Below, piece after piece: positions 1,969-31,937 of a stretch of 32,150 bases of DNA (its first letter is position 1; each line of letters starts with the position of its first letter). The translations under genes were made by a program, and so were the position numbers. The notes beneath the pieces were generated by a model. That model was not told the origin of the DNA. It made no database searches and saw only the letters and a program-made list of their open reading frames with translations. The stretch spans positions 1 through 32,150 of the forward strand of contig JAAYBR010000056.1 of the NCBI GenBank assembly GCA_012730045.1. Reading direction: 5' to 3'. Source of the stretch: Candidatus Hydrogenedentota bacterium. Lineage in GTDB: Bacteria > Hydrogenedentota > Hydrogenedentia > Hydrogenedentales > CAITNO01.

Positions 1969-2925
1969 ATGTCCATCACGCTGATGAGCACGATCAAGGG
2001 TTCGCTGCTGGAGGGGTTCTTCCCGGAGGGATGGGACTTGGCGAAGCTGGACGCCCTGTGCGGGCGCAAGCCGGAGACCCTGGCGAAGGCGGAGAAGTGG
2101 TGGAGCAAAAAGTTTGAGGCGGTTCCCTGCGCGTCCCTGGCGGACTTCGACATGATGATGGGCCACGAGATCGCGTGGGAGATCGCCCAGGCGAAGAAGG
2201 CGGGCAGACAGATCCTCTTCATCCTGCCCGTGGGCCCCATGGGCATGTACCGCTGGGCGGTGTATTTCCTGAAGGAGTGGAACGTGGACTGCCGCCATGT
2301 CCACGGCTTCAACATGGACGAGTGGAGCGACGCGAAGGGCAACACGCTGCCGGCGAAGGACCCCGGGGCGTTCCAGAACGCCATGGAGCAGGCCTTTTAC
2401 GGCCCCCTGGGCAAACTGTCCGCGCCGAAGAACCAGCGGCACTTCGCGACGAAGACCTCGCTGCCGAAATACGCGGACGCCATCGCCGCACTGCGCGCGA
2501 AGGGCGCGCGGCTGGTCACGGTGTACGGCATCGGGCGCGCGTGCCACATTGCCTTCTGGGAGCCGCACTTTGCGAAGGAGTACGCCTCGGTGGCGGCGTG
2601 GAAGAAGGCGACCCACCGGCTGGGCGCGCGGCTCTGCCCGCTGACCATCGAGCAGAACGCGATCACGAGCTTCAAGAGCCGGACCACGCTGGTGCCCGCG
2701 ACGGCGAACACCGTCGGCCCGGGCCTCTTCCTCCAGTCCGACCGGTGCATCGGCGGGGCGGACGGCGCGCTGGGCCGCGGCATGATGTGGCAGGGCATGT
2801 CGCTGTGGGCGACGCTGCACCACGAGCCGACGCCGTGGATTCCCAGCACGTTCATGCCGACCCTGCCCGGGCGGCTCTTCTTCCTTCAGGAGCTGGCGGG
2901 GCCGCTTGAGCCGGAGTGCAACTGA
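1969..2925 (+). CDS. Glucosamine-6-phosphate deaminase-like (NagB-fold) protein, altered active site
   Basis: A 318-residue protein resembling NagB sugar-phosphate deaminase/isomerases (E. coli NagB has 266 residues). FNMDEW (114-119) matches the NagB FNMDEY motif that carries the proton-transfer Asp72. [13 protein letters not shown] (187-199) matches GVGNDGHIAFNEP: His143 and Glu148 equivalents are kept (His193, Glu198) but Asp141 is replaced by Ala191. The reaction may therefore be changed or lost. The start at 1969 is chosen because AGGAG lies 8 nt upstream; a GTG at 1870 and an ATG at 1951 are less likely. It heads a plus-strand chain with the oxidoreductase 3 nt downstream. I infer a cytoplasmic role on an amino-sugar phosphate or related sugar. 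Confidence 0.75.
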
Positions 2926-2928
2926 TCG

Positions 2929-3975
2929 GTGGTCATTTCCCGCGCATACGGCAGGCGCCCCGAGAAGCGCTTTGACGAGCGGTACCCCGTCGTGGTGGCG
3001 GGGGCCGGCGTGACCGGCCTCGCGGCGGCGCGCCTGCTCCAGTCCCTCGGGCTGGAGTGCGTCGTGTTTGAGAAGGGCGCCCGCGTGGGCGGCCGCTGCG
3101 CCACGCGCACGGCCGGAGACGCCGTGTTCGACTACGGCGCGCAGTTTTTCACGGCGCGCAGCGCGGAGTTTCAGCAGCTTGTGGGCGAGTGGACGGCGCG
3201 CGGCGTCGCGCGCGAGTGGACGCGCAGCTTCCCCTCGCTGGACGGCGTGGCCGAGCAGCCGGGCTTTCCCCGGTACATCGGGGCGGACGGCATGTCGGGG
3301 GTGGCGGAGACACTGGCGGAGGGGGTGGACGTGCGCTTTGACCGGCGGGTCAAGCGGATCACGGAGGCGCGCGGGTACTGGGACATGGAGATGGAGGAGG
3401 GCCCGGCGGTGCGCGCGGACGCGCTGCTGCTGACGATGCCGCTGCCGCTGGCGCTGCGCCTGATCAACGACGAGAACACCTGGCGCTTCGGCGCGCTGCT
3501 CGCGCCGGTCGCGGGGGCCCGCTATTTCCCCTGCTTCACCGCGATGGCCGTGCTCGACGGTCCCAGCGGCCTGCCGGGCCCCGGCGCGCTGCGGATGGAC
3601 GAGGGCCCCGCCGCGTGGGTGGCCGACAACCGGATCAAGGGCGTCTCGAAGGCCCACGCGGTGACCATCCACGCGACGCACGACTGGTCCGAGGCGCACC
3701 TGGACCTTTCGCCGCAGGAGGCCGCCCAGGCGCTCCTGGACGCCGTGCGGCCGCATCTGGCCGCCAGGGCCGCGCAGGTGCAGGGATACCGCTGGCGCTA
3801 CAGCGCGCCGGCCGCCGTGCTGCCGACCATGCATTACTATCTGGACTGCCGCGCGCCCCTGTGCTTCGCCGGGGACGCGTTCGGCGGCCGCCGTCTCGAG
3901 GGCGCCGTGCTCTCGGGCCGGTCGGCCGCGCGCGCGCTGGCCGCGCGGCTCTCCGGGGAGAACGACACACCATGA
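2929..3975 (+). CDS. Renalase-like NAD(P)/FAD-dependent oxidoreductase
   Basis: A 348-residue flavoprotein of the amine-oxidase/renalase type. The dinucleotide-binding loop is GAGVTG (25-30) with Glu48 closing the ribose site. VGGRCATR (53-60) and DYGAQFFTAR (68-77) are signature segments of bacterial renalase-like proteins, and the C-terminal CFAGDAFGGRRLEGA is the second FAD-contacting region. Known relatives oxidise dihydropyridine forms of NAD(P)H; the substrate here is not known. The start is a GTG only 3 nt after the stop of the NagB-like gene, so translation is probably coupled. Its stop overlaps the glpD start (ATGA). No signal peptide is present, so it is cytoplasmic. Confidence 0.8.
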   Translation: MVISRAYGRRPEKRFDERYPVVVAGAGVTGLAAARLLQSLGLECVVFEKGARVGGRCATRTAGDAVFDYGAQFFTARSAEFQQLVGEWTARGVAREWTRSFPSLDGVAEQPGFPRYIGADGMSGVAETLAEGVDVRFDRRVKRITEARGYWDMEMEEGPAVRADALLLTMPLPLALRLINDENTWRFGALLAPVAGARYFPCFTAMAVLDGPSGLPGPGALRMDEGPAAWVADNRIKGVSKAHAVTIHATHDWSEAHLDLSPQEAAQALLDAVRPHLAARAAQVQGYRWRYSAPAAVLPTMHYYLDCRAPLCFAGDAFGGRRLEGAVLSGRSAARALAARLSGENDTP

Positions 3976-5531
3976 GCTTTACCAGGGAAGAGATGGCCGC
4001 GCGCGCGGCCGACACCGGGACCGAATGGGACTTCCTCGTCATCGGCGGCGGCGCGACCGGCGCCGGGGTGGCGGTGGACGCGGCGTCGCGCGGACTCAGC
4101 GTGCTGCTGGTGGACCGCGGCGACTTCGGCAAGGGCACGTCGAGCCGCAGCACGAAACTGGTGCACGGCGGGGTGCGCTACCTCCAGCAGGGCAACATCT
4201 CCCTGGTGATGGAGGCGCTGAAGGAGCGCGGCATCCTGCGGGACAACGCGCCGCACCTCGTGCACGACCTCCCCTTTGTCGTGCCGAACTACACCTGGTG
4301 GGAGGCGCCCTTCTACGGCATCGGCCTGCGCATCTATGACCTCCTCGCGGGAAAGCACGGCTTCGGGCCGTCGCGGAACCTGTCGGTGGAGAAGACCCTG
4401 GAGCGCATCCCCACCATCGAGACCGAGGGCCTGCGCGGCGGCGTGGTCTACTACGACGGCCAGTTCGACGACTCCCGGCTCCTCATCAACCTCGTGCAGA
4501 CGGCCGCGGAGCACGGCGCCGCGGCGGTCAATTACATGGAGGCCGTGCGCATCCTGCGGCGGGACGACCTCGTCTGCGGCGCCGTGCTGCGCGACCGCGA
4601 GACCGGCGAGGAGCACACGGTGCGCGCGCGCGCGGTCATCAACGCGGCGGGGCCCTTCGTGGACGGCGTGCGCCGCCTCGACGAGCCGGACGCGGCGCCC
4701 ATGATCCGCCCGAGCCAGGGCGTGCACATCATCCTCGACCGGTCCTTCCTCCCCGGCGACAGCGCCATCATGGTGCCGCACACCGACGACGGGCGCGTGC
4801 TCTTCGCCATCCCCTGGCGCGGGCGCACGCTGGTCGGCACGACGGACACGCCCATTGACGACCTGCCCGGCGAGCCGCGCGCCCAGGACCAGGAGGTGGA
4901 GTTCCTGCTGAGCCACGCGGCGCGCTACCTCACCCGCGACCCCGGCCGGGACGACGTGCTGAGCGTCTTCGCGGGCATCCGCCCGCTGGCGGCGGGCGAC
5001 GCGGCCACCACGGCGGCGCTCTCGCGCGACCACACGCTGCACATCTCGCGCAGCGGGCTCGTGACCATCACGGGCGGCAAGTGGACCACCTACCGGAAGA
5101 TGGCGGAGGACACGGTGGACCAGGCGGCGACCATCGCGCGCCTCGACCCGCCCCCCTGCGCCACGAAGACCCTGCGCATCCACGGCCACGTCGAGCGCGC
5201 GGAGGAGTTCGGCGAGCTCGCCGTCTACGGCGCCGACGCGCTCTCGGTCCTCAACCTCGTGCGGGAGTCGCCGCAGAACGCCGAGCAGCTTCACCCGGAC
5301 CTCGAGACCATCGAGGCCGAGGTCATCTGGGCCGCGCGCCATGAGATGGCCCGCACGGTGGAGGACGTCCTCTCCCGACGCACGCGCTGCCTGCTGTTCA
5401 ACGCGGCGGCCAGCGTGGAGGCGGCCCCGCGCGTGGCGGCGATCCTCGCGAAGGAGCTGGGCCGCGACGCCGCCTGGCAGGCCGCGCAGGCGCGCGCCTT
5501 TGAGGAAACCGCGGCGGTCTACCGCCTCTGA
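3972..5531 (+). CDS. glpD: Glycerol-3-phosphate dehydrogenase (FAD, GlpD/GlpA type)
   Basis: A 519-residue protein of normal length for respiratory glycerol-3-phosphate dehydrogenase, which oxidises sn-glycerol 3-phosphate to dihydroxyacetone phosphate at the inner membrane and passes electrons to quinone. FLVIGGGATGAGVAVDAASR (21-40) is the FAD-binding loop, and GTSSRSTKLVHGGVRYL (55-71) is the classic GlpD signature. The substrate-binding region TLVGTTDTP and the GGKWTTYR segment are intact, and the C-terminal DAO_C-like helical domain is complete. The ATG overlaps the stop of the preceding oxidoreductase by ATGA. No glpK or glpF lies nearby, so the substrate may come from lipid turnover. 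Confidence 0.92.
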   Translation: MSFTREEMAARAADTGTEWDFLVIGGGATGAGVAVDAASRGLSVLLVDRGDFGKGTSSRSTKLVHGGVRYLQQGNISLVMEALKERGILRDNAPHLVHDLPFVVPNYTWWEAPFYGIGLRIYDLLAGKHGFGPSRNLSVEKTLERIPTIETEGLRGGVVYYDGQFDDSRLLINLVQTAAEHGAAAVNYMEAVRILRRDDLVCGAVLRDRETGEEHTVRARAVINAAGPFVDGVRRLDEPDAAPMIRPSQGVHIILDRSFLPGDSAIMVPHTDDGRVLFAIPWRGRTLVGTTDTPIDDLPGEPRAQDQEVEFLLSHAARYLTRDPGRDDVLSVFAGIRPLAAGDAATTAALSRDHTLHISRSGLVTITGGKWTTYRKMAEDTVDQAATIARLDPPPCATKTLRIHGHVERAEEFGELAVYGADALSVLNLVRESPQNAEQLHPDLETIEAEVIWAARHEMARTVEDVLSRRTRCLLFNAAASVEAAPRVAAILAKELGRDAAWQAAQARAFEETAAVYRL

Positions 5532-5559
5532 CCGCCCGACAACCACGGAGACCGGCGAC

Positions 5560-6495
5560 ATGAAAGCCCCCACGCGTCTTTGCCAGGTGCTCGCGGCGGC
5601 CGCCGCGCTGCTTGCGGCGGGGTTCGCCGCCGCGCAGGGCAAACCCTACGAACTGGTGAAGGACGTGCAGTACGGGGAGGCCAGGGGCGTCCCCCTGCTG
5701 CTGAACGTCTACAAACCGACCGGACAGAACCGCAACCCGCTCTACAAGCCCGGCGACACGGGGAAGGGCCTCGCCGTCATTGACGTGATCAGCGGCGGGT
5801 GGAACAGCAGCCCCGCGCGGGAGAACGAGCACGCGGCCGCCGGCATGTTCGACGTCGTGTGCGCGCGCGGCTACACCGTCTTCGCCGTGCGCGTGGGGTC
5901 GGTGCCGGAGTTCGACGGCCTGGAAATCACCGGGAACCTCCAGCGCGGCGTGCGCTGGGTGAAGGCCCACGCGGCGGAGTACGGGATCAACCCCGACCGC
6001 ATCGGCATGGTGGGCGCGTCGGCGGGCGGGCACCTCACGCTGCTCTCAATGGTGAGGGAAGAGCCCGGCGATCCGAAGGCGGAGGACCCGCTGCTCCGTT
6101 TCAGCACGCGCATCGCGGCGGTGGCGGTGTTTTTCCCGCCGACCCATTTCCTGAACTGGGGCGGCGGCAGGGCGCCCATTACCAGCGAGCCGGGGCTGCT
6201 GTTCAACGGCGGCGTGGCGGGGAGGACGGAGGCCGAGATTGACGCGCGCCTCAGGGAGCTGTCCCCCGCGCTCCAGGTGAAGCCCGGCCTGCCGCCCGCG
6301 CTGCTCATCCACGGCGACTCGGACCCCATCGTGCCGCTGGACCAGTCGGAGCAGATGGTGAAGGCGCTCAAGGACGCCGGGAACGGCGCGGAGCTGGTGG
6401 TGAAGCAGGACGGCGGGCATTTCTGGCTCACCATCACCGAGGAGATCATCCTCATCACCGACTGGCTCGACAAGCAGCTGGCGGGCGCGCAATGA
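5560..6495 (+). CDS. Secreted alpha/beta-hydrolase (esterase/peptidase-like)
   Basis: A 311-residue alpha/beta-hydrolase with a Sec signal peptide (hydrophobic residues 8-24, likely cleavage after AAAQ at 26). The catalytic triad can be read as Ser155 in GASAGGH, Asp255 in HGDSDPIVP and His287 in GGHFW. This is the BD-FAE/prolyl-oligopeptidase-like esterase group; the substrate is unknown, but export suggests an ester or acylated glycan outside the cytoplasm. GGAG lies upstream of the ATG. It follows glpD by 28 nt and overlaps the next hydrolase by ATGA, so the two are one transcript. The next protein is a clear paralogue lacking the signal peptide. Confidence 0.82.
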   Translation: MKAPTRLCQVLAAAAALLAAGFAAAQGKPYELVKDVQYGEARGVPLLLNVYKPTGQNRNPLYKPGDTGKGLAVIDVISGGWNSSPARENEHAAAGMFDVVCARGYTVFAVRVGSVPEFDGLEITGNLQRGVRWVKAHAAEYGINPDRIGMVGASAGGHLTLLSMVREEPGDPKAEDPLLRFSTRIAAVAVFFPPTHFLNWGGGRAPITSEPGLLFNGGVAGRTEAEIDARLRELSPALQVKPGLPPALLIHGDSDPIVPLDQSEQMVKALKDAGNGAELVVKQDGGHFWLTITEEIILITDWLDKQLAGAQ

Positions 6496-7433
6496 CGGAG
6501 ACGCGGGACGACGGGGAGCATCCTGTCGAGATGCTGCACCGGCCGGGGGCGCTGCTGCACGCGCGCCCGAAGACCCCGGGGCATTTCCGCCGCGCGCGCA
6601 ACCGCGTCTACGCCGAGGCCCTCGGCGTCGCGCTGGTGATGGACGTGTTCCAGCCGGAGGGCCCGTCGAACGGCCTCGGCGTGGTGGACGTCATCAGCAG
6701 CGGCTGGCGCTCCGACCGGATCGCGCTCAACGAGCATGTGGGCTTCGGCCTGTGCGACGCCCTGTGCGGCGCGGGATTCACGGTCTTTGCGGCGTCGCCC
6801 GGCGCCGCGCGCCTCTTCGAGGGGAGGGACCTCGTCCTGCATGTGCACGCGGCGGTGCGCCATGTGCGCCACCACGCGGGGGAGTGGGGCGTGGACCCCG
6901 GCCGCCTCGCCCTCGCGGGCACCTCGGCGGGCGGGCACCTCGCCGCGCTCGCCGCGCTGTCGCCGCAGAAGGGCCGCCCCGCGGCCCGCGAGCCCCACCG
7001 CAGGCACGACTCGTCGGTCGCCGCCGTCGCGGCCTTCTTCGCGCCGTCGGACCTCGAGGGGCTGTTCCGGGGGGACGCCTCCCTGGAGGCCGCGCGGCAG
7101 GGCATCGCGTGGGAGGAGATGCTCTTTCACGGAGGCCTGCGGGGAAGGACGCCGGAGGAGGTGACAGAGCGGATGCGCGAACTCTCGCCCGTTCACGCGG
7201 CCGCATCGTTCCGCGCGCGCCATCCCGGGCAGGCGCCGCCGCCCTTCCTGCTGGTCCACGGCGACGCGGACCCCGTGGTGCCCCTTGTGCAGTCGCTGCG
7301 GCTGGCGGACGCGCTGCGCGCGGCCGGCGGTGTCGCCGACGTGCTGGTGCGTCCGGGCGGCGGCCATCCCTGGCCGGACGCCGGCGCCGAATGCGCCAAG
7401 GCGGCCGCGTGGCTCGCCGCCCGCCTGCGCTGA
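6492..7433 (+). CDS. Cytoplasmic alpha/beta-hydrolase, paralogue of the preceding gene
   Basis: A 313-residue hydrolase that shares the order of motifs with its upstream neighbour: VVDVISSGW near residue 65, the nucleophile elbow GTSAGGH (Ser145), HGDADPVVP for the acid, and GGGHPW for the histidine. It starts with a hydrophilic stretch and has no signal peptide, so the pair places one enzyme outside and one inside the cytoplasm. The ATG overlaps the previous stop codon (ATGA). It is the last gene of the plus-strand chain; a large stem-loop follows at 7498-7573. The substrate is not known. Confidence 0.8.
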   Translation: MTETRDDGEHPVEMLHRPGALLHARPKTPGHFRRARNRVYAEALGVALVMDVFQPEGPSNGLGVVDVISSGWRSDRIALNEHVGFGLCDALCGAGFTVFAASPGAARLFEGRDLVLHVHAAVRHVRHHAGEWGVDPGRLALAGTSAGGHLAALAALSPQKGRPAAREPHRRHDSSVAAVAAFFAPSDLEGLFRGDASLEAARQGIAWEEMLFHGGLRGRTPEEVTERMRELSPVHAAASFRARHPGQAPPPFLLVHGDADPVVPLVQSLRLADALRAAGGVADVLVRPGGGHPWPDAGAECAKAAAWLAARLR

Positions 7434-7497
7434 CCCGCCCCGGCGCCCGCGCACGACCCTTTTGAAAACGCCGCATCTCACCCCCAAGGCGCTCCAA

Positions 7498-7573
7498 CGA
7501 CAAAACGCCCATGCCTTGTCTCCGGAAGGGTGTCTTTCGGCAGGCCCCGAAAACAAAGGCACGGGCGTTGTCG
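7498..7573. terminator. Large stem-loop between convergent genes, likely bidirectional terminator
   Basis: Arms at about 7498-7519 and 7552-7573 pair over roughly 20 bp with a few mismatches (shared core CGCCC and TGCCT), enclosing a loop with its own weaker pairing. It lies between the stop of the hydrolase at 7433 and the stop of the histone-like gene at 7628, which run towards each other. There is no clean T run, so intrinsic termination is inferred from position and structure. Confidence 0.5.
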
Positions 7574-7627
7574 CGCGGGACTTACCTCCCGTGCCGCGCG
7601 GGCCCGGGAGCGCCTGGCTGTGGGAGA

Positions 7628-7906
7628 TTACTTCTTCGCGACGGCCTTTTTCGCGGCCGGCTTCTTCGCGGCCGGCTTCTTCGCGGCGGCCTTCTTCACC
7701 GCCGGCTTCTTCGCGGCGGCCGGCTTCTTCGCGACGGCCTTCTTCACCGCGGGCTTCTTCGCGGCCGGCTTCTTCGCGACAGCCTTCTTCGCGGCCGGCT
7801 TCTTCGCCGCAGGCTTCTTCGCGACAGCCTTCTTCGCCGCGGGCTTCTTCGCCGCAGGCTTCTTCGCCGCAGGCTTCTTCGCCGCCGCTTTTTTCACATC
7901 CGCCAT
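7628..7906 (-). CDS. Histone H1-like Ala/Lys/Pro-rich DNA-binding protein
   Basis: A 92-residue protein made almost wholly of AAKKP and AVAKK repeats after the leader MADVKK. Lysine supplies nearly all charge; there are no aromatic residues and no acidic residue other than Asp3. This is the composition of the histone H1 C-terminal tail, as in chlamydial Hc2 and the AlgP tail, which bind DNA and compact the nucleoid. Tandem DNA repeats underlie it, so its length may vary among strains. The ATG at 7906 is set by AGGAGGA 8 nt upstream; the frame remains open to 8149, but that extension lacks such a site and is unlike the repeat part. A predicted promoter at 8248-8276 gives it a leader of about 335 nt with three palindromes. 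Confidence 0.8.
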
Positions 7907-7992
7907 TGCTCGTTCCTCCTGTCTTGAACGACCTCGTCTCTCTTCCGCACCGCGCGGAGGCGTCATCCCGGACAACAGGTCCGCGATGCGCC

Positions 7993-8019
7993 CGCCGTTC
8001 ATGCACACCATGAACGGCG
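7993..8019. promoter_or_regulatory. Perfect 11-bp inverted repeat, candidate operator or leader hairpin
   Basis: CGCCGTTCATG, a 5-nt loop, then CATGAACGGCG. It begins 87 nt upstream of the histone-like start codon, within that gene's predicted leader. It could be a protein-binding operator or an RNA hairpin. It does not match the CIRCE element or another operator I know. Confidence 0.5.
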
Positions 8020-8247
8020 CACTTCCACAGATGCGCTGCGCATCCGCAAAAGGCGTGGGAAAAGGCTCCGGGCTGGAAGGGGCCGCCGCGTCTTCCGCAA
8101 GCGCGGCGCCCCTTGACTCCGACGTGTCCGCTTGTTGGTCAGGCCACACGATAAAGAGTTCTTCGTTGCATTTTTTTCCGCGCGCGCCGTCGAAAAAAAT
8201 GGTCCGCGTTGAACAACCCGGAAACTTGATTCAACTGTGACGCCGAA

Positions 8248-8276
8248 TGTGTAGCAAACAAAGAGGAAAAAATCAA
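8248..8276 (-). promoter_or_regulatory. Predicted sigma70 promoter of the histone-like gene
   Basis: On the minus strand TTGATT (8276-8271), a 17-nt spacer and TACACA (8253-8248) form a fair sigma70-type promoter. The implied start is near 8241, giving a 5' leader of about 335 nt. The -10 is imperfect. Confidence 0.45.
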
Positions 8277-8399
8277 GCGTCAAGCCAAACTTTTTTTCTT
8301 TTTTTTGCGGGCGCGCGGCGGCGCTTTATTCGGCCGCGGCCGATTGGGTACCATGTGCGCGTCTGCGGAGATCACCGCAGAGGACGAAAGGAACCCGCG

Positions 8400-9875
8400 A
8401 TGACGGAAGACAGTCAACGGCACGGCGAACTGCTTGAGCGCTTCAGGAGCGTGCGCGTGATGGCGGTGGGCGACATCTACCTCGACGAGAACATCTTCGG
8501 CTCCGTGACGGAGGTGAGCCTCGAGGCGCCCATCCCCGTCTTCGAGGTGCATGAGAAAAGGCACAACCCCGGCGCCGCGGGCAACGCCGCGTGCAACGCC
8601 GCATCGCTCGGCGGCCGGGTCACCATGGTCGGCGTGGTGGGCGACGATGTGAACGCGGGCATTGTGCGGCGCGCCTTTGAGGAGCGCGGCGTGGACACGT
8701 CGGGCATTGTCACCGACCCCTCGCGCGCCACGAACACCTACGGAAAGCTGAAGGCCGGCGGGCACAACATCCCCATGCAGGAGGTGCTGCGCACGGACAC
8801 GCCGAAGCCCCGCATGGTGTCGGGCGGCGCCGAAGCCGCCGTCATCGCGCAGATACGCCGGCTCGCGCCGGAGGTGGACGCGGTCCTCATCGGCGACCAG
8901 GTGTCGGCCACGGTCTCCGACGCGGTGTACGCGGCCATCATGGAGTGCGCGGAGAAGTTCTCGCTGAAAACGGTCGCCGACTCGCGCGCCCGCGCCGGAT
9001 ACTTCGCCGGCGTGGACGTGATCAAGCCGAACGACCGCGAGGCCGGGCTCGCCGCGGGCATTGACGTGGTGGACGAGGCGTCGCTGATGCGGGCGGGGCG
9101 CTTCCTCACCACGCGCGCGAAGAACGCCATGGTCACGCGCGGCCCCGAAGGCATCACCGTGTTCGCCGCCGGCGGCTCCGTGGAGACGGTGCCCATCCGC
9201 CCGGTGCGCGCGGTGGACGTCACCGGCGCGGGCGACACCGTGGCCGCGGCGATCGTGCTCACCCTCGCCGCGGGCGGATCGCTGCGCGACGCGGCCGTGC
9301 TGGGCAATCTCGCCGCGGGCATCGCCGTGGCGCAGCCCGGCGTGGTCACCGTGTCCAACGACGAGCTGCGCGACGCCGTGCTCGGCCCGGAGGGTCCGGA
9401 GAAGCTCAAGTCGGTGGACCAGCTGCGCGGCGTGGTGGAGCGCCTGCGGCGCGACGGCAAACGGGTGGTGTGGACCAACGGCTGCTTCGACCTGCTGCAC
9501 GCCGGGCACATCTCCTACCTGCTCAGCGCGCGCGCGTGCGGCGACGCGATGGTGGTCGGGCTCAACACGGACGCGTCGGTGCGCGCGCTCAAGGGGCCGG
9601 AGCGCCCCGTGGTGAACGAGATGGACCGCGCGCTCGTGCTGTCGGCGCTGGAGTGCGTGGACTACGTGGTGCTCTTCGGCGACCCGTCGCCCCTGCGCCT
9701 GATCGAGACGCTGCGGCCCGACGTCTACGCGAAGGGCGGCGACTACACGCTGGATACCATTGTGCAGGAGGAGCGCCGCGCCGTGGAGGCCTACGGCGGG
9801 TCCATCGCCATCATCCCCGGCCGCGAGGGGAAGTCCACCACGGGCCTCATCAACAAGATATCCGGGAAACCCTGA
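8400..9875 (+). CDS. hldE: Bifunctional heptose-7-phosphate kinase / heptose-1-phosphate adenylyltransferase
   Basis: A 491-residue two-domain enzyme of ADP-L-glycero-D-manno-heptose synthesis for the lipopolysaccharide inner core. The N-terminal ribokinase-fold domain (about 1-325) has VGDIYLDE (23-30), the sugar-binding GAAGNAA (58-64) and the catalytic anion hole GAGD (276-279, base Asp279). The C-terminal nucleotidyltransferase (about 345-491) starts with TNGCFDLLHAGH (359-370), containing the HxGH motif. The length fits E. coli HldE (477). The ATG is chosen from an AAAGGA site and the conserved start. Upstream lies a TACCAT box (8349-8354). GmhA and GmhB are not in the window. The gene implies a heptose-containing outer-membrane glycolipid. 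Confidence 0.95.
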   Translation: MTEDSQRHGELLERFRSVRVMAVGDIYLDENIFGSVTEVSLEAPIPVFEVHEKRHNPGAAGNAACNAASLGGRVTMVGVVGDDVNAGIVRRAFEERGVDTSGIVTDPSRATNTYGKLKAGGHNIPMQEVLRTDTPKPRMVSGGAEAAVIAQIRRLAPEVDAVLIGDQVSATVSDAVYAAIMECAEKFSLKTVADSRARAGYFAGVDVIKPNDREAGLAAGIDVVDEASLMRAGRFLTTRAKNAMVTRGPEGITVFAAGGSVETVPIRPVRAVDVTGAGDTVAAAIVLTLAAGGSLRDAAVLGNLAAGIAVAQPGVVTVSNDELRDAVLGPEGPEKLKSVDQLRGVVERLRRDGKRVVWTNGCFDLLHAGHISYLLSARACGDAMVVGLNTDASVRALKGPERPVVNEMDRALVLSALECVDYVVLFGDPSPLRLIETLRPDVYAKGGDYTLDTIVQEERRAVEAYGGSIAIIPGREGKSTTGLINKISGKP

Positions 9876-19681: not shown

Positions 19682-19754
19682 TACAGTGCAAGTTATATGC
19701 ATGGTCGGTTGGTGCGGCACGGTCCCCTGTCGGGGATGACAAGGAGGTCTCTTG

Positions 19755-22700
19755 ATGAACAGAATGTGGGTGCTTCTTGGGGTGGCGGCGCTGGCGGGGG
19801 TTGCGTGTCTGGGGGTGGGGTGCAAGCCCGGGGAGCCGTTGGCGGGGTTCACCGCCGATCCGACGAGCGGGGTGGCCCCGCTGAAGGTCCAGTTCACGGA
19901 CCGCTCGGTCGTCACCAGGGAGTCCACGATCGCGGGGTGGTCGTGGACCTTTGGGGACGGGGGCACGTCCACGGAGCAGCATCCGGAACACACCTATGCG
20001 GCGGCGGGGAACTACACCGTCTCGCTCACTGTGACCAGCAGTTACGGAAAGACCAACGTGGTTACTCTGGCGGAGTATGTAAAGGTTGTGCCCGCGGGTG
20101 AACCACCGTTACCGGTCCCCAACGTGGTGGGCATGGTCCAGGCGGATGCAGAGGCGGCGATCACGGGCGCGGGCTTGGTGGTTGGGACGGTGACGGAGGC
20201 GCACCACGCCACGGTTCCCGCCGGGAATGTCATCAGCCAGAACCCGGCGGCGGGCGTCGAAGTCGCCTCCGGCTCCGCAGTCAGCCTGGTGGTGAGCAGG
20301 GGGCCGCAGCCAGTGGCCGTTCCGGATGTTGTGGACATGGCGCGCGTCGCGGCGGAGGCCGCCATTACCGCCGCAGGCTTGACCGCGGGCACGGTGACGG
20401 AGGAATTCAGCGCCACGGTTCCCGCCGGGAATGTCATCCGCCAGAACCCTGTGGCGGGCACCAGCGTGGCGCCGGGAAGCACGGTGGCGCTGGTTGTAAG
20501 TCTCGGGCCGGAGATGATCACCGTCCCGAGTGTAGTGGGTATGTCCCAGTCTGCGGCGCAGGCTGCTATTACGGGTGCCGGCCTTGCTGTGGGCACGGTA
20601 ATGGAGCAATATCACGCGACCATCCCCGCAGGCCAGGTCAGCAGCCAGAACCCTGCGTCGGGTACTGAGTTGGCACCAGGTTCGGTGATAAATTTGGTGG
20701 TTTCCCGCGGGCCGTGGCTCGGCGGGGACGCAGTGACGATCCTCCTTCCGGGGAACGTACCGCTGGAGCTGATGCGGATACCGGCGGGGAGTTTTCTGAT
20801 GGGCTCTCCGGATACGGAACAGGGCCGGAGCGAGGGCGATCGTGAGGGCCCGGTGCATGCGGTGACCATTGGGTATGATTTCTACATGGGGAAGTATGAG
20901 GTGACGCAGGGGCAGTGGCTGGCGGTGATGGGATCGTGGCCGGACAGGGCGCCGGAGTATTATGGAGTGGGGGCCAATTATCCCGCCTATTACGTCTCGT
21001 GGGACGACGCCCAGGCGTTCATCACGGCGGTGAACGCGCACATCACGGAGACGGGCCAGGGTACGGCGACGCTGCGTCTGCCGAGCGAGGCGGAGTGGGA
21101 GTATGCCTGCCGGGCGGGCACGCAGACGCGGTTCTACTTCGGGGACTCCTTGGGGGGGGAGGAAGAGTGGTGTGCGGATGATGGCGTACGTAGCCAGTAC
21201 ATGTGGTGGCACTGCGGACAAAACATGACTATTGCCAACAATCCAGTGGGCGGGCTGCTTCCGAACTTATTTGGATTGCACGACATGAGCGGGAACGTGT
21301 CGGAGTGGTGCGAGGACTGGTGGCACGATGACTACGTTGGAGCGCCGGTGGACGGTAGCCCTTGGATAGTTCCTTCGACGTCGGCCCGGATTGCTCGGGG
21401 TAGTGGCTACTACGCAATAGAATGCCGTTCGGCGAGTCGCGGCGCCTGTAGTCCGTGGGGCAGATTAGAATCAGTGGGATTCCGCTTGGCCTCAGATCAA
21501 GGCGAAGGTGAGGGTGAGGGTGAGGGTGAACCCGCCCTAATAACGGTCCCGAATGTAGTGGGCATGACCCAGTCTGCGGCGCAGGTCGCCATTACGGGTA
21601 GCGGCCTTGTCGTCGGGGCGGTAACCGAACAGTACCATGCGACCGTCCCGGCCGGACAGGTCCTCAGCCAGAACCCGGCGTCGGGTGTCAGCGTGGCAAC
21701 AGAAAGCGCGGTGGCGCTGGTTGTGAGTCTCGGGCCGGAGATGGTCACCGTCCCGAATGTTGTGGGCATGACCGAGTCCGAAGCGCAGACCGCTGTTACG
21801 GGTGCCGGCCTTGTCGTCGGGACGGTAACCGAACAGTATCACGCGACGGTCCCGGCCGGACAGGTGATTAGCCAGAACCCGGCGTCAGGTACCAGCGTGA
21901 CAGCGGGAAGCGCGGTGGCGTTGGTTGTGAGTCTCGGGCTGGAGATGGTCACCGTCCCGAATGTAGTGGGCATGATCCAGTCCGCGGCGCAGGCCGCTAT
22001 TACGGGTGCCGGCCTCCTTGTGGGCACGGTGACACAGCAGTATCACGCGACCATCCCGGCGGGACAGGTCATCAGCCAGAACCCTGCGGCGGGTGCCAGT
22101 GTGGCATCGGGTACAGCGGTGAACCTGGTGGTGAGCAGGGGGCCGCAGCCCGTGGCCGTTCCGGATGTTGTGGACATGGCGCGCGTGGCGGCGGAGGCCG
22201 CCATCACCGCCGTAGGCTTGACCGTGGGCACGGTGACTGAGGACTTTAGCGTCACGGTTCCTGCCGGTTTAGTCATCAGCCAGAACCCTGTGGCGGGCAC
22301 CAATGTTGCATCGGGTACAGCGGTGAACCTGGTGGTCTCCAGCGGCCCCTTTGTTGGTGAGACGGTGACGATCCTCCTCCCGGGTAATATGCCGCTGGAG
22401 CTGGTGCAGATACCGGCGGGGAGTTTCCAGATGGGCGCGCCAGAAACGGAGCGAGGTAATTGGGGTTCTGAGGACCTCGTGCACACGGTGACCATCGGGT
22501 ACGACTTCTACATGGGCAAGTACGAGGTGACACAGGGGCAGTGGCTGGCGGTGATGGGGTCGTGGCCGGGCGAGGAGGCACCGTCCTCCACCTACGGCGC
22601 GGGGGCCGACTATCCCGCCTATAACGTTTCGTGGGACGACGCCCAGGCGTTTATCACGGCGGTGAACGTGCACATCACGGCGACGGGCCAGGGGTCGGCG

Positions 22701-24365
22701 ACAATGCGCCTGCCGAGCGAGTCGGAGTGGGAGTATGCCTGCCGCGCCGGCACGCAGACGCGGTTCTACTTTGGGGACTCCCTGGGGGTGGCGGACTACT
22801 GCGAGGACGACGGCGTTCGCAGTCAGTACATGTGGTACTGCGGGAATAACGCGGACTATGGTAGCAAGCCGGTGGGCGGGTTGCTGCCGAACGGCCTCGG
22901 GCTCTACGATATGAGCGGGAACGTATACGAATGGTGTGAGGACTGGTTTCACGACGACTACACCGGGGCGCCGAGTGACGGAAGCGCGTGGGTAAGTCCA
23001 TCGGCCACGGCCCGGGTCGTCCGGGGCGGCAGCTGGTACTACGGCGCCCAGGACTGCCGCTCGGCGAATCGGTACTACGAAGACCCGTCGGGCCGGTACG
23101 ACATCATAGGATTCCGCCTGGTCTCAGTCCAGGGTGATGATGAACCTTTCCAAGTGACCGTCCCGAATGTTGTTGGGATGACGCAGATAACAGCGCATAG
23201 CGCAATTTTCGGTGCCGGCCTCCTTGTGGGCACGGTGACGCAGCAGCACCACGCGACTATTCCCGCTGGACAGGTCATTAGCCAGAACCCTGCGTCGGGT
23301 GCCAGTGTGGCATCAGGAAGCACCGTGGCGTTGGTTGTGAGTCTCGGGCCGGAGACGGTCACCGTCCCGGATGTTGTTGGCATGACCCAGTCCGAAGCGC
23401 AGACTGCTACTACGGGTGCCGGCCTTGTCGTCGGGGCGGTGACCGAACAGTACAACGCAATGGTTCCTGCGGGACAGGTCATCAGCCAGAACCCTGCGGC
23501 GGGTGCCGATGTGGTACTAGGTTCGATGGTAGATCTTGTGGTTTCCTGCGGGCCGTGGGACGGTGACGACACGGTAACGATACTGCTTCCAGGGGATGTG
23601 CCGCTGGAGCTGGTGCGGATTCCTGCAGGGAGTTTCCAGATGGGCGCGCCGTTCACGGAGTTGTTCCGGTTGAGTGCTGAGGGGCCTGTGCACACGGTGA
23701 CCATTGGGTATGATTTCTACATGGGGAAGTGTGAGGTGACGCAGGGGCAGTGGTTGGCGGTCATGGGAACAAACCCGGGCGGCAATACGTGGGATTCTGG
23801 GTCTGGTTTGGATTATCCCGCCTATTATGTGTCATGGGAGGACACGCAGGCGTTTGTCACGGCGCTAAACTCGCACATCACGGCGACGGGCCAGGGTCCG
23901 GCGACGCTGCGTCTGCCGAGCGAGGCGGAGTGGGAGTATGCCTGTCGCGCGGGCACGCAGACGCGGTTCTACTTCGGGGATTCGCTGGATGAAGAAGACT
24001 ACTATGACGCCCTCTGCTGGGATGACAGCGTTCGCAGCCAGTACATGTGGTATTGCGGGAACACCGGGATCTACGGAGAGCCTGGATGCGGAACCAGACC
24101 GGTGGGCGGGTTGTTGCCGAACGGTTTCGGGTTGCACGACATGAGCGGGAACGTGATGGAGTGGTGCGGGGACTGGTTTCACGACGACTACACGGGGGCG
24201 CCGACGGACGGGAGTGCCTGGGTGAGTCCTCCGGGCTCGTACCGGGTCTTCCGGGGCGGCAGTTGGGCCAACAGGACCCAGTACTGCCGCTCGGCGAGTC
24301 GCGGCTACAACACCCCGTCGTACGGGGGCAGCGGCGCAGGGTTCCGTTTGGCCTCCGTTCGTTAG
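19755..24365 (+). CDS. Giant PKD - nine PASTA - three SUMF1 domain predicted lipoprotein
   Basis: A 1536-residue protein. Order: signal peptide with a lipobox-like LGVGC (Cys23), PKD domain (about 32-112), PASTA 1-3 (121-324), SUMF1-1 (about 327-582), a Gly-Glu linker (583-592), PASTA 4-7 (598-869), SUMF1-2 (about 871-1126), PASTA 8-9 (1136-1271), SUMF1-3 (about 1273-1536). PASTA repeats (68-residue period, VPNVVGM start) usually bind cell-wall muropeptides in kinases and penicillin-binding proteins; PKD domains are surface modules. SUMF1 here lacks the first FGE cysteine (Tyr, Asn or gap where human Cys336 lies; the Cys341 position is kept), so it is more likely a structural or ligand-binding fold than a formylglycine maker. 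The ATG at 19755 has AAGGAGG 7 nt upstream. The gene is lower in GC than its neighbours. Confidence 0.88.
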   Translation: MNRMWVLLGVAALAGVACLGVGCKPGEPLAGFTADPTSGVAPLKVQFTDRSVVTRESTIAGWSWTFGDGGTSTEQHPEHTYAAAGNYTVSLTVTSSYGKTNVVTLAEYVKVVPAGEPPLPVPNVVGMVQADAEAAITGAGLVVGTVTEAHHATVPAGNVISQNPAAGVEVASGSAVSLVVSRGPQPVAVPDVVDMARVAAEAAITAAGLTAGTVTEEFSATVPAGNVIRQNPVAGTSVAPGSTVALVVSLGPEMITVPSVVGMSQSAAQAAITGAGLAVGTVMEQYHATIPAGQVSSQNPASGTELAPGSVINLVVSRGPWLGGDAVTILLPGNVPLELMRIPAGSFLMGSPDTEQGRSEGDREGPVHAVTIGYDFYMGKYEVTQGQWLAVMGSWPDRAPEYYGVGANYPAYYVSWDDAQAFITAVNAHITETGQGTATLRLPSEAEWEYACRAGTQTRFYFGDSLGGEEEWCADDGVRSQYMWWHCGQNMTIANNPVGGLLPNLFGLHDMSGNVSEWCEDWWHDDYVGAPVDGSPWIVPSTSARIARGSGYYAIECRSASRGACSPWGRLESVGFRLASDQGEGEGEGEGEPALITVPNVVGMTQSAAQVAITGSGLVVGAVTEQYHATVPAGQVLSQNPASGVSVATESAVALVVSLGPEMVTVPNVVGMTESEAQTAVTGAGLVVGTVTEQYHATVPAGQVISQNPASGTSVTAGSAVALVVSLGLEMVTVPNVVGMIQSAAQAAITGAGLLVGTVTQQYHATIPAGQVISQNPAAGASVASGTAVNLVVSRGPQPVAVPDVVDMARVAAEAAITAVGLTVGTVTEDFSVTVPAGLVISQNPVAGTNVASGTAVNLVVSSGPFVGETVTILLPGNMPLELVQIPAGSFQMGAPETERGNWGSEDLVHTVTIGYDFYMGKYEVTQGQWLAVMGSWPGEEAPSSTYGAGADYPAYNVSWDDAQAFITAVNVHITATGQGSATMRLPSESEWEYACRAGTQTRFYFGDSLGVADYCEDDGVRSQYMWYCGNNADYGSKPVGGLLPNGLGLYDMSGNVYEWCEDWFHDDYTGAPSDGSAWVSPSATARVVRGGSWYYGAQDCRSANRYYEDPSGRYDIIGFRLVSVQGDDEPFQVTVPNVVGMTQITAHSAIFGAGLLVGTVTQQHHATIPAGQVISQNPASGASVASGSTVALVVSLGPETVTVPDVVGMTQSEAQTATTGAGLVVGAVTEQYNAMVPAGQVISQNPAAGADVVLGSMVDLVVSCGPWDGDDTVTILLPGDVPLELVRIPAGSFQMGAPFTELFRLSAEGPVHTVTIGYDFYMGKCEVTQGQWLAVMGTNPGGNTWDSGSGLDYPAYYVSWEDTQAFVTALNSHITATGQGPATLRLPSEAEWEYACRAGTQTRFYFGDSLDEEDYYDALCWDDSVRSQYMWYCGNTGIYGEPGCGTRPVGGLLPNGFGLHDMSGNVMEWCGDWFHDDYTGAPTDGSAWVSPPGSYRVFRGGSWANRTQYCRSASRGYNTPSYGGSGAGFRLASVR
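20115..20726 (+). repeat. PASTA array 1 (three 204-bp units)
   Basis: Three consecutive 68-codon units start at 20115, 20319 and 20523. The second unit (VPDVVDMARV type) recurs almost unchanged as the seventh PASTA unit of the protein, which indicates duplication of whole cassettes. Confidence 0.85.
21402..21476 (+). other. Variable C-terminal segment of SUMF1-1
   Basis: Segment between the RG motif and GFR of the first SUMF1 domain. The part from Cys to GFR has the same 21-residue length as in the other two copies, with fixed C, R, S, A, R, P and GFR positions. Its third codon bases differ from the other copies, and it is two residues shorter before the Cys. Confidence 0.55.
21501..21530 (+). 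repeat. Gly-Glu linker repeat (GGTGAG units)
   Basis: Five Gly-Glu dipeptides coded mostly by GGTGAG join SUMF1-1 to PASTA array 2. Such linkers are frequent in large surface proteins of Hydrogenedentota-like genomes, as far as I recall. Confidence 0.8.
21546..22361 (+). repeat. PASTA array 2 (four 204-bp units)
   Basis: Units begin at 21546, 21750, 21954 and 22158. The fourth is the VPDVVDMARV type also seen as unit 2 of array 1. Confidence 0.85.
23037..23108 (+). other. Variable C-terminal segment of SUMF1-2
   Basis: Twenty-four codons between GGSW and GFR. Compared with the segment at 24267-24338, 15 codons change the amino acid and 13 of those keep the third base, so changes fall on first and second positions. 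Confidence 0.55.
23160..23567 (+). repeat. PASTA array 3 (two 204-bp units)
   Basis: Units begin at 23160 and 23364 and lead into the last SUMF1 domain. Unit counts per cassette are therefore three, four and two. Confidence 0.85.
24267..24338 (+). other. Variable C-terminal segment of SUMF1-3
   Basis: Twenty-four codons between GGSW and GFR at the extreme C-terminus of the protein, the place where variable repeats lie in known diversity-generating retroelement target proteins. It aligns without gaps to 23037-23108. Confidence 0.55.
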
Positions 24366-24747
24366 GCGCGTTCCGGTGTTCCTGTCGGGCTCAGGCACAA
24401 GCAGGCAGAGAAACGGAAACGACGCCGGGCAAGGCCCGTGCGCAGCCGGGATGCATCCGGTGACGGTGTCGGCAAGAATGGTGGTTTTTCGGCTGGAGGA
24501 CTGTTTGCCCTGTAAACATATTCGGAAATTTTCGTTGACATTCCAGCAGGCGCCAAGTAGTTGTCATAACGCACCTAAGCGACAAAGCAGAGTTAGATAC
24601 TAGCAAATGCGGCCCCGTTTCAAAAAGAAGTCCACGGACGGGTCACGGTCCCTTTCGCCCCTCCGGCGGCGCTTTTGATTTCCGTTGGGGGGGCGGCGTA
24701 TAGTCAACAGGCAAACCGGGGACCGATCCGGTCCGGGATTGCAGCCG
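24366..24747. other. Gene-free stretch between the giant gene and the HNH gene
   Basis: This 382-nt stretch has a small hairpin (CGGGC-aag-GCCCG, 24426-24438) without a T run, a palindrome around 24446-24460, and a TTGACA (24535-24540) followed after 17 nt by a poor -10. No template repeat matching the variable segments is visible, and no gene is supported. The HNH promoter lies at its right end. Confidence 0.5.
24675..24704 (+). promoter_or_regulatory. Promoter of the HNH endonuclease gene
   Basis: TTGATT (24675-24680), an 18-nt G-rich spacer and TATAGT (24699-24704). The start codon follows 44 nt after the -10 box. Confidence 0.55.
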
Positions 24748-31850: not shown

Positions 31851-31937
31851 GCCGGGATGGCGAAATTGGCAGACGCAGTGGACTCAAAATCCACCGGTAG
31901 TGATACCGTGGGGGTTCGACCCCCCCTCCCGGCACCA
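31851..31937 (+). tRNA. tRNA-Leu (anticodon CAA)
   Basis: An 87-nt class II tRNA. The acceptor stem GCCGGGA pairs with TCCCGGC, the anticodon stem is GTGGA/TCCAC around loop CTCAAAA, giving anticodon CAA that reads UUG. A long variable arm (CGGTAGTGATACCG) marks it as leucine, the T-arm GGTTCGACC is present, and CCA is encoded. A T run follows at 31942-31949 and probably stops transcription. Confidence 0.95.

Follow-up and report, generated by a model that had tools for sequence, protein, structure and literature searches.

The stretch of DNA analysed here (the window; 32,150 nt, positions 1 to 32,150 of contig JAAYBR010000056.1 from a Candidatus Hydrogenedentota bacterium) carries a gene that we believe, with a probability of roughly 0.8, to encode a lipid-anchored surface protein in which a PKD domain and PASTA repeats form a stalk for three heads of C-type-lectin fold, these heads being target domains of a diversity-generating retroelement (DGR), a bacterial mutation engine. 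We ascribe the tips of the heads to a DGR because a one-cassette gene in a relative of the same genus (locus L001) is a DGR target, and because the tips of window heads 2 and 3 differ from the template repeat (TR) of that relative almost only at TR adenines.

The gene is a single open reading frame (Table 1), in which Pfam recognized a PKD domain (PKD_4, 1.7e-16), nine PASTA stretches (4e-138) and three FGE-sulfatase/SUMF1 stretches (7e-151). The PASTA units (9 × 68 residues) are spaced at exactly 204 nt and fall into runs of three, four and two, with a SUMF1 domain after each run, as the sequence-only reading had proposed. Its assignment of the 68-residue repeats to PASTA also held, as the PASTA profile matched above its gathering score over nine stretches (450 bits) and the PDB relatives of the repeats are the PASTA chains of Ser/Thr kinases, for example PknB. 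Assembly duplication does not explain the triplication, because the three heads are only 77–79% identical to one another at the nucleotide level when the variable tip is excluded. The proposed PASTA stalk presenting three SUMF1 heads, with a lipoprotein anchor, is upheld as a prediction; judged by eye from the translations, the lipobox cysteine is residue 23 of the window protein (LGVG-C), and the L001 protein reads LFAG-C. In the L001 gene, CGGAGG stands as far from the ATG as AAGGAGG does in the window gene. The best named matches of the window protein were to Hydrogenedentota MAGs. Among the neighbouring genes in the window, those recognized by Pfam have mainly metabolic or enzyme functions (including radical SAM/B12, an HNH nuclease and Gfo/Idh/MocA oxidoreductases), and a tRNA-Leu(CAA) lies at 31851–31937, close to the contig end.

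Table 1. Features of the window gene and of the DGR at the same-genus locus L001 (contig JAKPUV010000648); A and nonA, mismatches at adenine and non-adenine positions of the L001 TR.
Feature	Position	Strand	Basis or remark
Window: Shine–Dalgarno AAGGAGG	19741..19747	+	Read in sequence
Window: open reading frame, 1536 aa (ATG at 19755, stop ending at 24365); signal peptide/lipobox - PKD - PASTA3 - SUMF1 - PASTA4 - SUMF1 - PASTA2 - SUMF1	19755..24365	+	
Window: predicted signal peptide with lipobox-like end LGVG-C (Cys23)	19755..19823	+	By eye from translation
Window: PKD domain	19836..20093	+	Pfam PKD_4
Window: PASTA run 1, three units	20109..20720	+	Pfam and repeat spacing
Window: SUMF1/C-type-lectin head 1	20733..21494	+	Pfam
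Window: VR-equivalent tip of head 1, probably decayed	21396..21485	+	A 24/31, nonA 18/59 vs L001 TR, best gap placement
Window: PASTA run 2, four units	21540..22355	+	Pfam, repeat spacing, PDB relatives
Window: SUMF1/C-type-lectin head 2	22365..23126	+	Pfam, PDB sequence relatives, Foldseek
Window: putative DGR variable region (VR), head 2	23022..23117	+	A 15/31, nonA 3/65 vs L001 TR
Window: PASTA run 3, two units	23154..23561	+	Pfam and repeat spacing
Window: SUMF1/C-type-lectin head 3, C-terminal	23574..24356	+	Pfam
Window: putative DGR variable region (VR), head 3	24252..24347	+	A 17/31, nonA 8/65 vs L001 TR
Window: 3′ end and 3′ flank of gene	24340..24460	+	83% over 121 nt to L001 3455-3575
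L001: variable protein (VP)	2158-3480		
L001: VR	3342-3472		
L001: HRDC-domain accessory ORF	3676-4149		
L001: reverse transcriptase (RT)	4996-6105		IGNLTSQ motif
L001: TR	5993-6123		AAC codon-rich

The L001 locus belongs to a genome (G001) of the same genus as the window genome. Its 440-aa, one-cassette PKD-PASTA-SUMF1 gene is followed by the HRDC-domain ORF, a GIY-YIG ORF, the RT and the TR, which translates as RGGNWNNNAQNCRSANRNNNNPSNRNNNIGFR, and the VR differs from its own TR at 17 adenines and one cytosine; this gene is the target of a complete DGR. The two loci match at both ends of the gene, with 71% identity over 146 nt of the 5′ flank in addition to the 3′ match in Table 1; they diverge beyond position 24460, and their neighbouring genes are different. 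Recent transfer, which had been read from the low GC content of the window frame (64.1%, compared with 69.7% in the remainder of the window), is therefore unsupported, because the nearest relative is from the same genus and has matching flanks at both ends. Nor is the dip alone a sign of transfer, as the L001 gene has a GC content of 65.3% in a contig of 65.0%. Some smaller elements were also seen in these regions. The 3′ flanks of the L001 target (3472–3506) and of its TR (6122–6156) form inverted repeats of 35 nt at 86%, and the element in the target flank is retained in the 3′ flank of the window gene. REP-like palindromes (CGTCATTCCCGCGCAGGCGGGAATCCAG) occupy L001 4181–4992, between the accessory gene and the RT, and there are none in the window. 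Approximately 60 nt beyond the window stop lies a short GC hairpin, CGGGC-AAG-GCCCG, which falls outside the described IMH stem/loop rule.

As the reference for the window tips is the TR of a relative, the mismatch counts in Table 1 mix DGR change with divergence of the TR. Mismatches against it were concentrated at adenines in head 2 (Fisher test, p=1e-6) and in head 3 (p=2e-5). However, the TR adenines coincide with exposed lectin positions that vary naturally, so an adenine excess alone is weak proof, and we therefore added controls on the conservation of the non-adenine bases, relative to paralogues, own flank and shuffled sequence, and on codon positions. When the L001 TR was slid across the window, the two lowest non-adenine counts were 3 (at 23022) and 8 (at 24252), and the third-best position gave 26; shuffled windows gave minima of 27–30, and the other SUMF1 domains of the window genome (18 loci) differed at 20–30 of the 65 non-adenine positions. 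The non-adenine rate of head 2 was 4.6% in the VR but 19% in its own flank (p=0.001). Outside the VR, the divergence between the window heads and the L001 head is 18–23%, with an odds ratio for adenine of just 1.4–1.9, and codon position 3 takes most of the changes, whereas in the VRs of heads 2 and 3 it is positions 1 and 2 that have changed (p of about 0.001–0.002). At adenines changed in both of these heads, the same base was found at three of nine, matching the one-third expected for independent events, and the two tips are thus independent. Because the non-adenine bases are kept relative to paralogues and shuffles, the codon positions show this pattern and the tips are independent, heads 2 and 3 appear to have been written by a DGR and to be DGR variable regions within one polypeptide. 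The domain reading offered from the sequence alone thus stands, but it had missed this nature of the heads.

Head 1 is less clear. Its tip is two codons shorter than the L001 TR and has a non-adenine rate of 30%, compared with 23% in its own flank, which makes it not separable from an ordinary SUMF1 tip. It was probably once a DGR variable region; the choice lies between an old, decayed variable region and a tip that never was one. The L001 head groups with the three window heads in a single supported clade (98/87) and is 78–82% identical to them. The VR of head 3 ends 5 aa ahead of the stop codon, and that of head 2 is internal, 415 aa ahead of it.

None of the RT, TR and accessory gene lies downstream of the window gene, where L001 has all three, and cis DGR machinery is missing from the window locus. 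Searches of the window assembly (155 contigs, 97.5% complete) with the RT family and with RT proteins found no DGR-type RT. The L001 TR, used as a DNA probe, matched heads 2 and 3 and otherwise gave short, weak matches in the assembly, so no TR was found there; a protein search of the assembly for the HRDC accessory gene gave matches that cover the HRDC part alone, the best of them in a 668-aa ORF, and no match looks like the accessory gene. The sole RVT_1 match of the assembly (C147, L081) was rejected as a DGR RT: it has GTPQG in place of the SQ motif, has no VR-like match nearby and is of the intron type. With DGR RT, TR and accessory gene all missing from the assembly, the array has the look of a DGR target that is either an orphan or a fossil.

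The sequence-only reading had known of no parallel to this arrangement, but the PKD-PASTA-SUMF1 order recurs in one-cassette form in the window genome itself (L031, 621 aa) and in the relatives L001 and L169, and variants occur in genome G007 (L159, PASTA5-SUMF1-PASTA4-SUMF1) and at L002, whose PASTA3-PKD-SUMF1 target has its own TR (nonA 1/82, A 22/35). The L002 target (5845–9849) also carries a lipase-like alpha/beta-hydrolase stretch (Palm_thioest/PGAP1) before its SUMF1 head. A TR/VR pattern like that of L001 was found, with SUMF1 targets, at seven more loci of relatives; at L133 (G018 C154), a single TR (3120–3239) stands with two target genes, with VRs at 1023–1142 and 4753–4872. A second three-headed SUMF1 ORF (L156; G036 C136, 4076–9001, 1642 aa) occurs in another family of the order. 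Measured against the TR of G013 (L140, another genus), its tips have, from the N-terminal to the C-terminal head, 6, 3 and 2 non-adenine mismatches of 84 and 14, 16 and 15 adenine mismatches of 33; a TR matching these tips was not found in the G036 assembly. The L156 heads are 89–94% alike and monophyletic, with differing tips, and because they form a clade of their own, apart from the window heads, three-headed targets have arisen at least twice here. Larger arrays exist: L153 (G016 C44), L154 (G003 C23), L155 (G026 C9) and L157 (G036 C181) are ORFs of ~2500–2700 aa with six SUMF1 domains each. L153 and L154 share identical tips in heads 1 and 2, and L154 and L155, which are from different families, have nearly the same head 3; this sharing suggests transfer and fixed tips. 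The window genome also has giant PASTA-rich ORFs, L033 (G000 C114, 4800 aa), L036 (C138, 3911 aa) and L034 (C18, 2968 aa), with no SUMF1 domain within the parts of the ORFs examined.

Ordinary diversifying selection on the exposed ligand-binding loops of a SUMF1-fold surface protein, with no DGR, would be in keeping with an assembly that has no DGR machinery, and some adenine bias is expected in any non-DGR SUMF1 domain, given where the TR adenines lie. It is very improbable, and for heads 2 and 3 already strongly disfavoured: these heads retain 62/65 and 57/65 of the non-adenine TR bases, against the differences seen in the genome's other SUMF1 proteins, head 2 is better conserved at such bases in its VR than in its own flank, and the same-genus orthologue is a DGR target. 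That the multi-head target is still active, with a DGR RT and TR that act in trans and are missing from the assembly, seems improbable to us. The assembly is fragmented into contigs and just short of complete, and trans action and distal targets have been reported (PMC3521204, PMC10907252), but the RT, TR and accessory gene are absent together, and heads 2 and 3 already bear non-adenine differences from the L001 TR, some of them synonymous (for example TTT to TTC), whereas the intact targets of relatives mostly show 0–2 non-adenine mismatches to their own TR.

The array might instead have grown as a ratchet, in which only the C-terminal head, which alone keeps the 3′ flank, can be rewritten and duplications push older, fixed heads inwards, so that past specificities would stay on record in the protein. 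VRs are near-universally C-terminal in surveys, a position ascribed to downstream cis elements (PMC8144416), and in DGR 4 of Thiohalocapsa the third and last VR is most often variable at some sites (PMC10907252); the non-adenine counts of L156 drop towards its C terminus, head 1 is the most decayed in the window, and the flank conserved with L001 follows head 3 only. We nevertheless consider it possible but doubtful, as internal head 2 is nearer to the L001 TR than is head 3 (3 and 8 non-adenine mismatches), and internal VRs are able to vary too in Thiohalocapsa. Capture of ready-made heads, by unequal recombination among alleles or paralogues with different VRs and with no rewriting inside the array, is consistent with the presence of more than one DGR or SUMF1 target in the genomes of some relatives, with window heads that are about as distant from one another as from the L001 head, and with the independence of the head 2 and head 3 tips. 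The three window heads, however, cluster with the single L001 head and not with separate paralogues, and those of L156, although alike and monophyletic, differ in their tips, so we think it rather unlikely. Rewriting of every head within the array would be a third route to differing heads in one ORF.

In the history that we favour for a DGR-written array, a one-headed DGR target would have been the ancestor, PASTA-SUMF1 cassettes would then have been duplicated, adenine-mutagenic retrohoming would have rewritten the tips before, during or between the duplications, and the cis DGR machinery would later have been lost from the window locus, after which three specificities would remain, either fixed or drifting slowly. 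The PKD domain and PASTA runs would serve as stalk and spacers presenting three SUMF1/FGE-like binding heads. The protein is predicted to lie at the surface and may contact peptidoglycan; most likely it binds external ligands (particles, cells or phage), either multivalently or with several specificities. A more tentative and on balance unlikely extension is that, through cassette duplication together with DGR mutagenesis, a single surface protein comes to hold its binding specificities as a heritable archive; diversification would act on the terminal head, inward duplication would fix useful versions, and the repertoire would outlast loss of the DGR. If that is true, L156, in another family, is an independent case. 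Whether internal heads are rewritten or retained as a record thus becomes a testable question. An adenine-only signature against the TR of a relative can also expose former DGR targets missed by searches based on TR or RT.

The window heads are predicted to have the C-type-lectin fold that bears the VR, and SUMF1 folds are standard among DGR targets. The closest PDB sequence relatives of head 2 (phmmer) were PvdO and then Treponema TvpA (2y3c), and Foldseek ranked PvdO, TvpA and FGE in that order for an AlphaFold head model (15 sequences; pTM 0.75, pLDDT 67, a moderate value that was lowest in the VR). In a model of PASTA4-SUMF1, the PASTA folds were confident and the head was poor (pTM 0.41). 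Formylglycine-generating enzyme activity was rejected: when head 2 was aligned with human FGE, and the heads with one another, none had a cysteine at the position of FGE Cys336.

Among known systems, PvdO (the best PDB match) and the formylglycine-generating enzyme share the FGE-sulfatase family fold with the heads, although the active-site cysteine pair of FGE is not kept, each of the three heads having another residue in place of Cys336. TvpA of Treponema denticola, a Treponema variable protein and DGR target, shares the SUMF1-type lectin fold with the VR at its tip, but has one head and neither PASTA nor PKD. PASTA Ser/Thr kinases (PknB/PrkC) also carry PASTA units of this family in tandem, whereas the window protein has no kinase domain and alternates PASTA with SUMF1 heads. 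The L001 DGR is like the window in its PKD-PASTA-SUMF1 target, its homologous start region and 3′ flank, and a TR that matches heads 2 and 3; it differs in having one cassette rather than three, RT, HRDC ORF and TR downstream, and other neighbour genes. Our literature search found no paper linking PASTA with FGE-sulfatase, or Hydrogenedentes with PASTA or with DGRs, and a paper found to name both PASTA and DGRs treats them in separate passages. As far as the literature searched shows, the PASTA-stalk lipoprotein form, such targets in Hydrogenedentota and the orphan state are new. Single ORFs with several VRs are already known (31 DGRs in one survey; PMC6642488). Multi-headed DGR-written proteins have been seen in a few bacteria, with one suspected artefact; the window and L156 add Hydrogenedentota, and show that an assembly can hold an array of this kind and yet lack the matching DGR genes. 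In Marichromatium purpuratum 984, three VR-bearing FGE-sulfatase (SUMF1) paralogues likewise lie in tandem in one ORF, and the authors were unable to decide whether this was an artefact (PMC3521204); a later description makes the ORF the target of a VMAP conflict system (PMC10907252). Unlike the window, it has its own DGR, and a PASTA stalk or lipoprotein is not reported there. The targets of DGRs 4 and 5 of Thiohalocapsa PB-PSB1 similarly carry three tandem lectin domains per protein, with several VRs that differ in activity (PMC10907252), but they have an N-terminal vWA domain, a predicted place in a conflict system and observed DGR activity, in contrast to the PKD/PASTA lipoprotein of the window, which stands without DGR genes.
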